DNA of 64,000 bases from an uncultured Verrucomicrobiota bacterium (GTDB taxonomy: Bacteria > Verrucomicrobiota > Verrucomicrobiia > Opitutales > Opitutaceae): assembly GCA_903960515.1 (NCBI GenBank), contig CAJCBL010000302.1:28820-92819 (forward strand), read 5' to 3'. The translations under genes and the position numbers were made by a program. Under the pieces are notes generated by a model. The model worked only from the letters and a program-made list of their open reading frames with translations. It had not been told where the DNA came from and did not search any database. Within the stretch, counting starts at the first letter, position 1, and every line of letters starts with the position of its first letter. Positions 19,981-55,600 of this stretch are shown one piece after another.

Positions 19981-20038
19981 GGAGGCATGTGTTGTGCCCC
20001 ACCGTGGGCCCCGTAGCGAGTGGGGATTGTCCCCGCCC

Positions 20039-20105
20039 GTCGGACCTGTCGGACCCGTCGGACCTGTCCGACTCGTCCGACCCGTCCGACTCGTCCGACC
20101 CGTCC
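20039..20105. repeat. 9-bp minisatellite GTCSGACYN, three units in one orientation then four in the other
   Basis: GTCGGACCT GTCGGACCC GTCGGACCT GTCCGACTC GTCCGACCC GTCCGACTC GTCCGACCC GTCC. Confidence 0.93.
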
Positions 20106-20216
20106 CCCTCCCCTCAAAAATCCGTTTGCTTGTCCCCCACCCCGCATCCGGGTTTGCACGCCACTGCACCACAGCCGATCCTGCCCGCATCCCCATCTCG
20201 GGTACCCCAGGCTCCA

Positions 20217-24578: not shown

Positions 24579-26539
24579 AACCAGAAACCGGGCACGAGTC
24601 GGACAGGTCCGACCAGTCAGCCCTGTCGGACCCGTCCGACTCGTCCCACGCCCGCACCGCGGAACTGCGCCGGCGGGCAGAGGCCCTCGCCGGTGAACTT
24701 GCGGCTGCAGCTACCGCTGCCCCCCTCTCTCCGGAGGCCATGCAACGGGTGCTCCACGAACTGCGCGTCCACCAGATCGAGTTGGAAATGCAAAACGAGG
24801 AACTGCGCCGAACGCAGGAGGCGCTGGATGCATCCCGGGAGCGCTATTTCGACCTCTACGACTTGGCTCCCGTGGGCTACCTCACCGTGGGCGAGAAAGG
24901 GGTGATCCTGGAGGCCAACCTTGCAGCCGCCACCCTGCTGGGGGTGCCCCGTGGCGCGCTGGTCAACAGGGGGATGTTCTCCCAGTTCATCGCCACGGAG
25001 GACTTGGATAGCTACTACCTGCATCGCAACCGCCTGTTTGCCACCGGCCAGCCCCAGTCGTGGGAGGCACGTATGGTGGATATAACAGGCACGATTTTTT
25101 GGGCCCATCTGGCTGCGACCGCCGCCACCGATTCCACGAAGGGGATCCCTCAGGCGAAGCCTGAGCTAGAACAACAGCCCGAGCAGGGCGCGCCGGGTAG
25201 GCGGCGAGTGTGCCGGGTGGTGATTAGCGACATCACCGAACGCAAGCTGGTGGAGGCGGAGAAGGAGCGGCTGGAGTCCGAGAAACGCCAGTTGCGCAAG
25301 GCCGAAAGCCTCACCTGCATGGCCGGTGCGATCGCCCACAACTTCAACAATCTCCTACAGGGCGTGATGATGGGGCTGGAACTGGCCAAGGGCGATGTGC
25401 TCAGGCTGGAAAGCCCCGACGAAAGCCTAGACTTGGCCATGCAGTCGGCACGCAAGGCCGCCCGAGTCAGCGGCATGATGCTCACCTACCTCGGGCAGAC
25501 CACAGGCAAGCGAGAGAGGCTGGATCTGGCCGAAGTATGCCGGCAGAGCCTGCCTTTATTGAGAGCAGAATTACCGACGGCCTTCGATCCTACAGGAGAG
25601 CCCGGAGCAGGGCGGGCGGCGGTGCTGTTGGCGGCCGAGCTGCCCAGCCCCGGACCGGCGGTAGTGGCCGATTCCGGGCAGATCCAGCAGATCCTTTCCA
25701 GCCTGCTGGAGAACGCCTGGGAATCCATGGGAGCGGCAGGGGGCAGCGTGCGACTGAGCGTAAAGTCGGTAGAGGCGGCGGCGCTGCCGGTGACCAACCG
25801 TTTCCCCCTCGACTACCGGCCAAAGAGCGGCGCCTATGCGTGTATCGAGGTGGCGGACATAGGGTGCGGGATCTCGCGCCAGGACATGGAGAAGCTCTTC
25901 GATCCGTTCTTCACGCGAAAGTTTACCGGCCGCGGGCTGGGGTTGTCGGTGGTGCTGGGGATTGTGCGCGCCCATGGGGGGGCCATCGCTGTGGAGAGCG
26001 AACTGGGCCGAGGCAGCGTTTTCAGGGTGTATTTGCCGGTGGCGGGTAAAGCCGTAGGCCGGGTGGCGGTGGCCGGAGGCCTCGCACCGGTCGAGGGCTC
26101 GGGGCATGTGTCGGAGGCGGCAGCGGCTGCCGCGCTGGAGCACCGCGGCACTGTATTGGTGGTGGAGGACGATTCAGTGGAACGCAAAGCGACGGCGCTG
26201 GTGCTCAAGCGGGCCGGGTTTGGCGTGCTGGTGGCGGAGGACGGGGTGGCTGGCGTGGAGGTATTCCGGCAGTACGCCGAGCAGATCCGCTGTGTGCTGT
26301 GCGATGTGGCCCTGCCCCGGCTGGGCGGCTGGGAGACGATGGAGGCAGTGCGCAAGCTCTCCCCCGAAGTCCCGGTGATATTGACCAGTGGTTACAGCGA
26401 AGCGCAGACGCGGGAGCTGGCGAAGGTAAGCGCCGAGCCGCCGGAGGCCTTTCTGCGCAAGCCCTATGGGGCGGCGGTGCTGGTGGAGGTGGTCGGGCAA
26501 GCTCTGGCCCGGCAGCAGGAGCAGAAGAAGGCTTGGTGA
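24575..26539 (+). CDS. PAS-containing hybrid histidine kinase with C-terminal receiver domain
   Basis: AIAHNFNNLLQGV (HisKA-like H box), ADIGCGISRQDMEKLFDPFFTRKFTGRGLGLSVV (HATPase), VLVVEDDSVERKATALVL...LCDVALPRLGG (REC). Confidence 0.9.
   Translation: MKPETGHESDRSDQSALSDPSDSSHARTAELRRRAEALAGELAAAATAAPLSPEAMQRVLHELRVHQIELEMQNEELRRTQEALDASRERYFDLYDLAPVGYLTVGEKGVILEANLAAATLLGVPRGALVNRGMFSQFIATEDLDSYYLHRNRLFATGQPQSWEARMVDITGTIFWAHLAATAATDSTKGIPQAKPELEQQPEQGAPGRRRVCRVVISDITERKLVEAEKERLESEKRQLRKAESLTCMAGAIAHNFNNLLQGVMMGLELAKGDVLRLESPDESLDLAMQSARKAARVSGMMLTYLGQTTGKRERLDLAEVCRQSLPLLRAELPTAFDPTGEPGAGRAAVLLAAELPSPGPAVVADSGQIQQILSSLLENAWESMGAAGGSVRLSVKSVEAAALPVTNRFPLDYRPKSGAYACIEVADIGCGISRQDMEKLFDPFFTRKFTGRGLGLSVVLGIVRAHGGAIAVESELGRGSVFRVYLPVAGKAVGRVAVAGGLAPVEGSGHVSEAAAAAALEHRGTVLVVEDDSVERKATALVLKRAGFGVLVAEDGVAGVEVFRQYAEQIRCVLCDVALPRLGGWETMEAVRKLSPEVPVILTSGYSEAQTRELAKVSAEPPEAFLRKPYGAAVLVEVVGQALARQQEQKKAW
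24598..24651. repeat. In-frame 9-bp minisatellite encoding an SDx tripeptide repeat
   Basis: GTCGGACAG GTCCGACCA GTCAGCCCT GTCGGACCC GTCCGACTC GTCCCACGC; related to 20039-20105. Confidence 0.85.
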
Positions 26540-26700: not shown

Positions 26701-27830
26701 CGCAAGAGACGAAAATCCCCCGGGAAATCGGATCGAGCGCAACCGTTTGGGTTCACGACCGTGAGGGCAAACGGTTTTGGAAGTGCCCACTCTTTTCATA
26801 CATGCCCCGCACCCAGGCTTCCCCCGGCTCCGGATAGCCTCCGGATGCTATGGTCCGCGGCCGCGGATGATAGCATCCCGGAGCATTCCCACCTTCCACC
26901 CGCACCACATCCCTGCCCCGGCAGCAATTCGCCGTTCCCCCACTCGGGGCCACACGTCGCTCAAGAGACGAAATCCCAGAAAGCGGATCGCGCGCAACCG
27001 TTCGGGCTCACGACCGTGAGGGCAAACGGTTTTGGTAGTGCCGAAGGGTGGGCATTCCGAGTGGGGAGAAATCCCCCAGAAACGGATCGTGTCAGCACAT
27101 CGCCCCCCGCGCACATTTCCAGGGGCGCACACACGGCACTGAATTACCTCCGGATGCTATCGTCCGCGGCCGCGAACGATAGCATCCGGAAGCAATTCCC
27201 GATCAGCACCGCCCCTGTGAGCGGCCAGTACCGCAAGTCGTCCCCTAATCACCACTTCCATTCGCCGTTTCCACTTCGTCCCCGGCAACACGTCGGGCGC
27301 GAAGAATTTCCCCAGAAAACGAGTCGCCCCCCAACCGTTTGGGTTCACGACCGTGAGGGTAAACGGTTTTGGTAGTGTAGGGTCGGTGGCGTTCCGCGAG
27401 GAGAAATCCCCGTCACAGCGGGTCGTTCGCGCAACCGTTTGGGCTCACGACCGTGAGCGCAAACGGTCTAGGATGCACCCACTATTTCCGTACACTCCCC
27501 GCACCCAGGCTTCCCCCGTCTCCGGATAACCTCCGGATGCTATGGTCCGCGGCCGCGGATGATAGCATCCCGGAGCATTCCCGCCCTCCACCCGCACCGC
27601 ATCCCTGCCCCGGCAGCAATTCGCCGTTCCCCCACTCGGGGCCACTCCTCGCTCAAGTGCCGAAAATCCCCAGAAAGCGGATCGCGCGCAACCGTTTGGG
27701 CTCACGACCGTGAGGTTAAACGGTTTTGTTAGTGTAGCGTCGGTTGCGTTCCGCGAGGAGAAATCCCCGTCACAGCGGGTCATTCGCGCAACCGTTTGGG
27801 TTCACGGCCGTGAGGGCAAACGGTTTTTGT
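26701..27830. repeat. Composite array of two palindrome families (A: AACCGTTTGGGYTCACGACCGTGAGGGCAAACGGTT, six copies; B: TCCGGATGCTATSGTCCGCGGCCGCGGAYGATAGCATCCGGA, three copies)
   Basis: A copies start at 26741, 26996, 27333, 27433, 27690, 27790; B copies at 26840, 27149, 27532; intervening sequence also partly duplicated. Confidence 0.93.
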
Positions 27831-27872: not shown

Positions 27873-28571
27873 TCAGGCGCTCTTGCGGAGCTCTTCCACA
27901 GCGCGTTTCTCCACCGCTCTCCACTGTCTCCATTCCGCCGCTGGCACACCCGCCTCGTGCAGTTTCACTCGGGCGCGACTCAGCGCTGCGGCGAGATACT
28001 GGCGGTAGTCGTAGTCGCTGCCGTGGGCGCTGCGCTCCATTGCGGCCAGATCAAAATAGGGAGCCGCCACGGGAGGAGCCACCGCGATGGCAGCCTTGGG
28101 CGTAACTGCTGGCGCGCTGAAGATACGCGGCGGCACTGCCGGAACTGAAGGAGTGGCAGGGGCAACCGCCGAAACTGGGGCAACCGCCGCAATGGGTGCA
28201 ACAGGCGATACCGATCGAGCCGGAGTCGCCGGCTTAGCGGGCACCGCAAGTGCAACCGGCGCTACCCGAAGAACTGGTCCCACTGACGGCCCAGAAGGTG
28301 CCAGTGTCGCCACGGGCAGGGCCGCGCCCTCATTTGTGCCCGCAAGCCATTGGGGGGCCACGCCCAGCGCCTTCGCCAGCGCCTCCACTTCGCTCCATTC
28401 GGCGTCGGCATAGCCCGCCTCCAGCCGGGAGATACGGCTGGCCTTGCAGTCCGCCAACCCACTTGTCCGCGCCTTCTCGGCCAAACCAGTCTGCGATAGT
28501 GCCGGCTGAAAGCCTCGGCGCGCCTGGGCCAAGCGTTCAGCGATTCTGAATTTCTTCGTGGGGTATGCCAT
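27873..28571 (-). CDS. XRE-family helix-turn-helix protein with Ala/Pro/Val-rich linker
   Basis: RIAERLAQARRGFQPALSQTGLAEKARTSGLADCKASRISRLEAGYADAEWSEVEALAKALGVAPQWLAG. Confidence 0.75.
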   Translation of the reverse strand: MAYPTKKFRIAERLAQARRGFQPALSQTGLAEKARTSGLADCKASRISRLEAGYADAEWSEVEALAKALGVAPQWLAGTNEGAALPVATLAPSGPSVGPVLRVAPVALAVPAKPATPARSVSPVAPIAAVAPVSAVAPATPSVPAVPPRIFSAPAVTPKAAIAVAPPVAAPYFDLAAMERSAHGSDYDYRQYLAAALSRARVKLHEAGVPAAEWRQWRAVEKRAVEELRKSA

Positions 28572-30238: not shown

Positions 30239-30354
30239 GCCCCCGAGTCGCTCGCCCCTAGCCCCGCCTTCCGGTCTCCGCATTCCGAATTCCGCCTTCC
30301 GCACTCCGGTCTCCGCCCTTCCGCACTCCGCCTTCCGAATTCCGCATTTCCCCG

Positions 30355-33583: not shown

Positions 33584-33640
33584 GTAGGAGCGTGCTTGCA
33601 CGCGATCTGCGCTCTGGATCGCGTGCCAGCACGCTCCTAC
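33584..33640. repeat. REPIN-like element (full)
   Basis: GTAGGAGCGTGCTTGCACGCGATCTGCGCTCTGGATCGCGTGCCAGCACGCTCCTAC. Confidence 0.92.
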
Positions 33641-47334: not shown

Positions 47335-47712
47335 TTAGACCTTCGCGGCCGACTTGGTCACGAGGGCGGCGCGGACCTGCGCAACGATGGCGCCGAAAGC
47401 AGCCTCATCGCGGATGGCGATGTCGGAAAGGACCTTGCGGTCGAGCCCGATATTGGCGGCCTTGAGGCCTTCGATGAAGCGGCTGTAGCTGATGCCGGCG
47501 CTGCGGCAGGCTGCGTTCAGACGCACGATCCAAAGCCCGCGGGCGTTGGACTTCTTCTTCTTGCGATCCCGGTAGGCATACTGGAGCGCATGATCGAGCG
47601 CTTCGTTGGCGTACCGGTAGAGCTTGGACTTGTTTCCGAAGTAGCCCCTGGCTTGCTTCAGAACCTTTTTCCGCCGTTTGCGGGAGGCGGGACCGTTTGT
47701 GACACGAGGCAT
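47335..47712 (-). CDS. rplT: 50S ribosomal protein L20
   Basis: MPRVTNGPASRKRRKKVLKQARGYFGNKSKLYRYANEALDHALQYAYRDRKKKK. Confidence 0.98.
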   Translation of the reverse strand: MPRVTNGPASRKRRKKVLKQARGYFGNKSKLYRYANEALDHALQYAYRDRKKKKSNARGLWIVRLNAACRSAGISYSRFIEGLKAANIGLDRKVLSDIAIRDEAAFGAIVAQVRAALVTKSAAKV

Positions 47713-47791: not shown

Positions 47792-47989
47792 TCAGCCCAG
47801 ACCGTGCGGGAGTCCGCGCATGAGCGCGGCCGCATGGCCGGGAGACACGAGCTTGTCCTTGGAGGCGCGACGCTTCTGCTTCGAGCTCTTCGTGGAAAGC
47901 AGGTGACGGAAGCCCGGAGTGCGGCGGATCAGCTTTCCGGTGCCGGAAATCTTGAACCGCTTGGCGATGGACTTCTTTGTCTTCTGCAT
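47792..47989 (-). CDS. rpmI: 50S ribosomal protein L35
   Basis: MQKTKKSIAKRFKISGTGKLIRRTPGFRHLLSTKSSKQKRRASKDKLV; start at internal ATG 47989. Confidence 0.97.
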   Translation of the reverse strand: MQKTKKSIAKRFKISGTGKLIRRTPGFRHLLSTKSSKQKRRASKDKLVSPGHAAALMRGLPHGLG

Positions 47990-48095
47990 GGTGAGTTGGG
48001 CAGAAAGAGGACCGCCCCGGTCGAACGCAAGGGAGAATTTTCGGCTCATCGTTGGGCGCGCCGCCGATTTCGGCACGCCAGCGCCGGAACGAGTG

Positions 48096-48422
48096 CCGGA
48101 TGCTATCGTCCGCGGCCGCGGATGATAGCGTCCGGCGCGCTGCAGCGTTGCTCGCCACCGATCTCCAACGACAACACTCCCCCATTCGGGCATAGACCCA
48201 GGGTCCGCCCCCTCCGTCGGGGCCCTGCGCACTAAAACCTCCGGATGCTATCGTCCGCGGCCGCGGACGATAACGTCCGGAACGCGACATCGCGGCCCGC
48301 CACCACGCCCTAGCGGCAACGCTCCCCCGCTCGGGGGCCAGCCCCAATTCGCCCCCCCAGGGATTCTGCCCCCCCGAACCTCCGGATGCTATCGTCCGCG
48401 GCCGCGGACGATAGCGTCCGGA
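48096..48422. repeat. Array of three B-family palindromes (NotI-centred) upstream of rpmI
   Basis: TCCGGATGCTATCGTCCGCGGCCGCGGACGATAGCGTCCGGA-type copies at 48096, 48240, 48381; same family as 26840/27149/27532. Confidence 0.95.
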
Positions 48423-55154: not shown

Positions 55155-55302
55155 GATTGCAGTGTCCTAACCTCCACCACGCGCGGCGTCCAGCCCGGCA
55201 GTGGACCGCGTTTTCCAGGATTCCCGTTCAGCCCTGGCCGGTCGGTAGGATCTGACGGTTCACCTCGATTCCTGCCCCGCTTCGCCCACCGATCCCGCCC
55301 CC

Positions 55303-55600
55303 CGACATCCGCCTTCCGCATTCGTCTTTCCGCCCTCCGACATCAGCCTTCAGCCCTCATCTTTCCGCCCTCCGACATCAGCCTTCAGCCCTCATCTTTC
55401 CGCCCTCCGCCTTCTTCACTCCGTCTCCCTCCCTCGGACTCCCGCCCTCCGCCTCCTCCCTCGGCCTTCTGCCCGCCAGCCTTCCGCCTTCAGCCTTCAG
55501 CCCTCCGCACTCCCCCAGCCCTCTGCCTTCCTCCTTCAGCCATCAGCCTTCCGCCTTCAGCCTTCCGCCTTCAGCCTTCTCCCTTAGGCCTCCGTATTCC
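55303..55600. repeat. Degenerate heptameric TTCMGCC tandem array
   Basis: Repeated ATCAGCC TTCAGCC / TTCCGCC CTCCGCC units over ~300 bp. Confidence 0.9.

Follow-up and report, generated by a model that had tools for sequence, protein, structure and literature searches.

The near-perfect palindromes in the window (the whole 64,000-nucleotide stretch of Verrucomicrobiota DNA analysed here) belong to a family that is dispersed through the genome and that also brackets a gene for a PaaX/Cas2-like protein, and homologues of this gene in other Verrucomicrobiota are paired with palindromes of their own. The association and the cognate specificity of the protein/palindrome pairs are nearly certain. 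On balance, we favour the reading that the palindrome is the cognate DNA site of the protein in a gene-plus-palindrome dispersal system. Binding of the palindrome by the protein is very likely, and mobilisation of the palindromes by the protein is a matter of even chances. Somewhat more tentatively, the system may be a new class of prokaryotic palindrome replicator, in which a PaaX/Cas2-like protein recognises, cuts and spreads its own symmetric palindrome, with many paralog-specific pairs across the Verrucomicrobiota.

A pairing scan of the window found six copies of the palindrome, referred to here as family A:

26840..26881, unstranded, family A palindrome
27149..27190, unstranded, family A palindrome
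27532..27573, unstranded, family A palindrome
48095..48136, unstranded, family A palindrome, upstream of rpmI
48240..48281, unstranded, family A palindrome, upstream of rpmI
48381..48422, unstranded, family A palindrome, best copy (20/21 pairs), upstream of rpmI

All six of the near-perfect 42-nt palindromes described in the initial annotation are present, and the positions agree to within one base (48095 here, 48096 there). The spacing of the last three, described as regular, measures 145 and 141 nt, and the one arm mismatch at 48381, which had been read as a wobble, leaves 20 of 21 positions paired plus one G-T. Across the six copies 17–20 of 21 positions are paired, while in eight random 64-kb sequences of the same dinucleotide composition the best pairing was only 15–16 of 21. 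The 27-kb trio lies in a repeat-rich stretch past a histidine kinase gene. The 48-kb trio lies 106–392 nt upstream of rpmI, between the divergent L35 (rpmI) and MFS transporter genes; its neighbours are:

47335-47712, (-) strand, L20/rplT
47792-47989, (-) strand, L35/rpmI
from 48729, (+) strand, MFS transporter

The location upstream of rpmI is incidental, because family A copies adjoin convergent, divergent and co-directional genes alike. No indication was found that the palindrome regulates rpmI/rplT, and a search of Rfam with it matched no family. A composite module of the palindrome and a second small hairpin (CCCCC..TCGGGG) had also been suggested. This hairpin is indeed present at both window loci, but it is missing within 200 nt of 15 family A copies checked elsewhere, and the module is therefore local only. 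A better companion of family A is a second palindrome family, B (AACCGTTTG...CAAACGGTT; repeat D4), which has six copies in the 26.7–27.8 kb cluster:

26741..26776, unstranded, family B palindrome
26996..27031, unstranded, family B palindrome
27333..27368, unstranded, family B palindrome
27433..27468, unstranded, family B palindrome
27690..27725, unstranded, family B palindrome
27790..27825, unstranded, family B palindrome

Beside this cluster, the gene at 27873-28571 (-) encodes a protein combining a helix-turn-helix at the N-terminus with a long linker rich in Ala, Pro and Val; it was considered as the partner of the palindromes and ruled out, not being PaaX-like.

Genome-wide, family A has about 26 copies after removal of overlapping contig ends, a count that includes degenerate and contig-end copies. 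With up to 3 mismatches, 22 palindromic places were found, versus 0 with the reversed pattern. The consensus is TCCGGATGCTATCGTYCGCGGCCGCGRACGATAGCATCCGGA, which is strand-symmetric (TCCGGATGC...GCATCCGGA). None of 28 listed family A places overlaps a gene predicted by a simple codon-based gene finder (which misses some genes), and no solo unpaired arms occur away from contig ends. Four contigs – C209, C298, C326 and C365 (L079–L082) – end inside a family A palindrome. Since the assembly breaks at these palindromes, the copy count is a lower bound. One locus (L069 5969-6670) has three tandem copies of a unit of ca. 330 bp, each made of a REP-like pair and a family A palindrome. Among 57 genomes searched, no other had family A at 3 or fewer mismatches.

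Arm changes that preserve pairing, which the initial annotation had noticed among the window copies, recur across the family. Pair 16/27 is T-A in 13 copies and C-G in 8, with one T-G and one C-A, and there are 12 compensated cells versus a shuffled mean of 6.5 and a shuffled maximum of 12. Neutral duplication limited to six copies, with no paired variation, thus fails to describe a family that is genome-wide and keeps its pairing. Within single genomes, G000, G081 and G005 show modest covariation and G308 shows none, and for this reason covariation is left out of the main evidence.

The partner gene lies outside the window. On contig C160, two family A copies bracket an ORF of 260 amino acids, with a third copy adjoining. 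The central part of this ORF gave a match to PaaX_M (E 2e-20), which is the domain of PaaX that resembles Cas2. Three paralogs occur in the genome (on C160, C12 and C171), and a separate palindrome family goes with each; a fragment is present on C335. The C12 gene is flanked by AACCGTTTGCCCTCACGGCCGTGAAGGCAAACGGTT, which is family B of the window, and the C171 gene is frameshifted and lies among copies of ACCGTATAGACTGACGACCGTCAGTCTATACGGT. Both of these families are dispersed as well, with copy counts that are lower bounds, only part of the candidates having been scored. The C335 sequence – two palindromes and the end of a gene of the C160 type – is 85% identical over 355 nt, and its likeness to the C160 unit ends 49 nt beyond the outer palindrome; it is a partial second (relic) copy of the gene-palindrome unit. 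The window copies of families A and B are solo palindromes; the gene-bearing units of these families are on C160 and C12.

Homologues of the gene were present in 34 of 385 genomes of the class. In a scan of the species collection, 50 homologue loci were chosen by protein alone, and a palindrome was called at an arm score of 12 or more. In the 50-nt intervals adjoining the gene, palindrome density was 10.2 per kb on the upstream side and 8.9 per kb on the downstream side, and beyond 400 nt it was 0–0.05 per kb. A palindrome lay within 100 nt at 37 of the 50 loci, on both sides at 17; the other 13 had none at the threshold used, several of them having degraded ones. The upstream palindrome is typically 31–41 nt before the start codon, and the second copy follows the stop codon. 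The two flanks match at 23.1 of 26 positions within a locus versus 14.9 of 26 between loci (0 of 2000 permutations). These palindromes are 36–44 bp long, and nearly all of their centres fit C-R-N-N-Y-G; the CGGCCG of the window fits as well. A sample across the phylum chosen by PF20803 gave the same gene-palindrome association. No homologue was found in phages. Six plasmid records had distant matches, four of them annotated as PaaX-type regulators, and none of these four had flanking palindromes; nor did ten RAYT loci.

The palindromes differ from gene to gene. In the congener G002, at least six distinct palindromes accompany the seven paralogs, the clearest cases having the same palindrome on both sides. 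The palindrome of the G002 gene nearest to that of C12 (79%) differs from the C12 palindrome at paired positions in both arms (GTTTGCCC/GGGCAAAC to GTTTACCC/GGGTAAAC). Protein distance and palindrome distance are correlated (Mantel r 0.65, 0 of 2000), a correlation to which shared ancestry contributes. We had considered that family A was missing from congeners through absence of the gene, which was wrong – congeners have the gene, with other palindromes. When ten palindromes were compared with twelve genomes, every match, among the matches listed, was to the genome's own palindrome.

Dispersal is likewise general. In 9 of 10 further genomes, copies of the gene's palindrome occurred at a distance from the gene as well. 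The palindrome places per genome, among the matches listed, ranged from 2 (G083, both beside the gene) to about 68 (G308). In G005, a complete genome of 5,957,605 bp from the same family, a single gene and eight palindromes are present. G308 (L209–L225) has sixteen palindrome pairs 74–78 nt apart, almost all of them 76. The palindromes of these pairs are 89% identical on average and the spacers 50% (shuffled 43%). With their diverged 40-nt spacers, the pairs resemble REPIN-like units.

Three copies in G388 have identical palindromes and left flanks of ca. 56% identity (shuffled 41%). One of the three lies in a block of ca. 320 nt where the congener G249 has 17 nt; this present/absent block is longer than the palindrome and is not polarised. 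At another G388 site the same palindrome is found in G249, as far as it is readable. No target-site duplication was obvious by eye in the flanks examined, and no base-precise empty site was found. The comparison of G388 with G249 and the preservation figures together indicate that copies come or go and that palindromes are far better preserved than the adjoining DNA. The better keeping of palindromes than of linked DNA may reflect selection, conversion or continuing activity, and would not be predicted for a purely selfish relic.

In an AlphaFold model of the protein (pLDDT 79, pTM 0.77), the N-terminal region contains winged-helix-like elements and is weakly predicted, with parts below 50; after it come a ferredoxin-like domain and a helical part at the C-terminus. 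Among solved structures the model is most like Rv0674 and E. coli PaaX (top folds 3kfw and 8a39), with many Cas2 structures next. In the favoured reading, the protein consists of an N-terminal winged-helix-like region, a Cas2-like domain and a PaaX-type C-terminal region. PF20803 (PaaX_M) was matched by all 31 proteins compared, and the PadR DNA-binding family by 5 of the 31. The scores of L156 are below the cut-offs of both TIGR02277 (PaaX; 58, cut-off 264.55) and TIGR01573 (Cas2; 18.6, cut-off 24.5), and by these curated cut-offs the protein does not count as a canonical PaaX or as a CRISPR Cas2. Aspartate D99, at the end of the first strand (93–98 in the model), is invariant in 31 of 31. 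By profile alignment it matches the Cas2 catalytic aspartate. This aspartate is absent from the six PaaX-type proteins compared (four plasmid regulators, E. coli PaaX and Rv0674).

In the proposed system, the full unit would be palindrome-gene-palindrome. The protein, probably as a dimer, would recognise the two-fold symmetric palindrome; dimer binding is suggested because E. coli PaaX binds a TGATTC(N27)GAATCA inverted repeat 39 bp across (PMC9493321), near the 36–44 bp seen here. The copies dispersed by the protein, or by its ancestors, would be solo palindromes, pairs of the form palindrome-spacer-palindrome and, occasionally, units that carry the gene; the palindrome would probably have been cut or copied in the process.

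Several known systems share some of these features. REP sequences with TnpA-REP/RAYT (REPtrons, REPINs) are dispersed short intergenic palindromes that flank a cognate gene (PMC8266576, PMC3733652, PMC3116915). Like them, the palindromes described here have dispersed intergenic copies, a single flanked cognate gene, lineage-specific sequences and some short-spacer pairs. Unlike them, the partner is PaaX/Cas2-like and not an HUH Y1 transposase, and the palindromes are strand-symmetric and lack a GTAG foot, while TnpA-REP needs strand-specific features. The system operates like REP/RAYT yet fails the defining tests of that family. The PaaX repressor (8a39, 3l09; PF20803, PF08223, TIGR02277) has the same domain order and the closest fold, but here the Cas2 aspartate is kept, the palindromes are on both sides and dispersed, TIGR02277 is below its cut-off, and no PAA-operon context was noticed. 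CRISPR Cas2 (PF09827, TIGR01573) shares the Cas2-like domain and an aspartate at the matching position; here, however, the domain is fused to winged-helix-like and PaaX C-terminal regions, the repeats are solitary palindromes and the score is below the cut-off. MITEs and terminal-inverted-repeat transposons also have short non-autonomous repeats beside a gene-bearing copy, but each end here is a whole palindrome and not half of one, and no target duplication was seen. No earlier description of a palindrome plus PaaX/Cas2-like gene system was found in the literature searched, which covered few preprints or subscription papers.

If the proposed system is real, dispersed bacterial palindromes would have partner proteins of a second kind, unrelated to RAYTs, and the PaaX/Cas2 fold would be tied to DNA that is mobile or spreads itself, with implications for the origin of Cas2. 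The many natural protein/palindrome pairs are also on offer for the study of how DNA recognition evolves.

The protein could instead be a PaaX-type repressor, with the palindromes as operators for autoregulation and a dispersed regulon and with no mobilisation by the protein. The system would then be a variation on something already known and not a new class. The upstream copy is at the normal place of an autoregulatory operator (31–41 nt before the start codon), the E. coli PaaX site of 39 bp is close to the lengths found here (PMC9493321), and palindromes are kept while linked DNA decays. We nevertheless consider this unlikely, given the second copy past the stop codon, the solo copies after stop codons and between convergent genes, the clusters, fixed-spacing pairs and tandem units, and the four PaaX regulators checked, which have neither palindromes nor the aspartate.

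Spread of the palindromes by other machinery – RAYTs, other transposases or hairpin replication slippage – would make the gene a passenger or a dependent resolver. The Y1 transposase family is matched 19 times in the window's genome, and the repeats are often nested with REP-like sequences. A passenger, however, would not need matched, different palindromes for each paralog, as the seven paralogs of one genome have, and the ten RAYT loci lack such palindromes, making this explanation quite improbable.

A function at the RNA level, with transcribed hairpins as terminators, stability elements or substrates of a Cas2-like ribonuclease, is very improbable. Some Cas2 proteins are ribonucleases, the copies would form strong RNA hairpins and several directly follow stop codons; but the strict, loopless two-fold symmetry, with copies on both sides of genes and between divergent genes, fits a dimer site in duplex DNA better, and 5 of the 31 proteins match a DNA-binding family (PadR). 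A local rpmI-rplT regulatory element or neutral duplication is hardly credible: three copies do lie close upstream of rpmI, but the majority adjoin unrelated genes, and in other species this system has palindromes of unrelated sequence.

The window also contains other repeats. A separate REP-like family (GTAGGAGCGTGCTTGCACGCGAT...) occurs between 30183 and 63240 (e.g. at 33584, 58499 and 63169) and has a GTAG foot, which is typical of RAYT-linked REPs. Tandem 9-bp repeats of the GTCCGACCC type lie near gene ends at 20021-20126 and 24580-24667, and arrays of 7-bp-based repeats (CCGCCTTCCG/CAGCCTTCAG) are found at 55295-55599 and also at 30250 and 31709.
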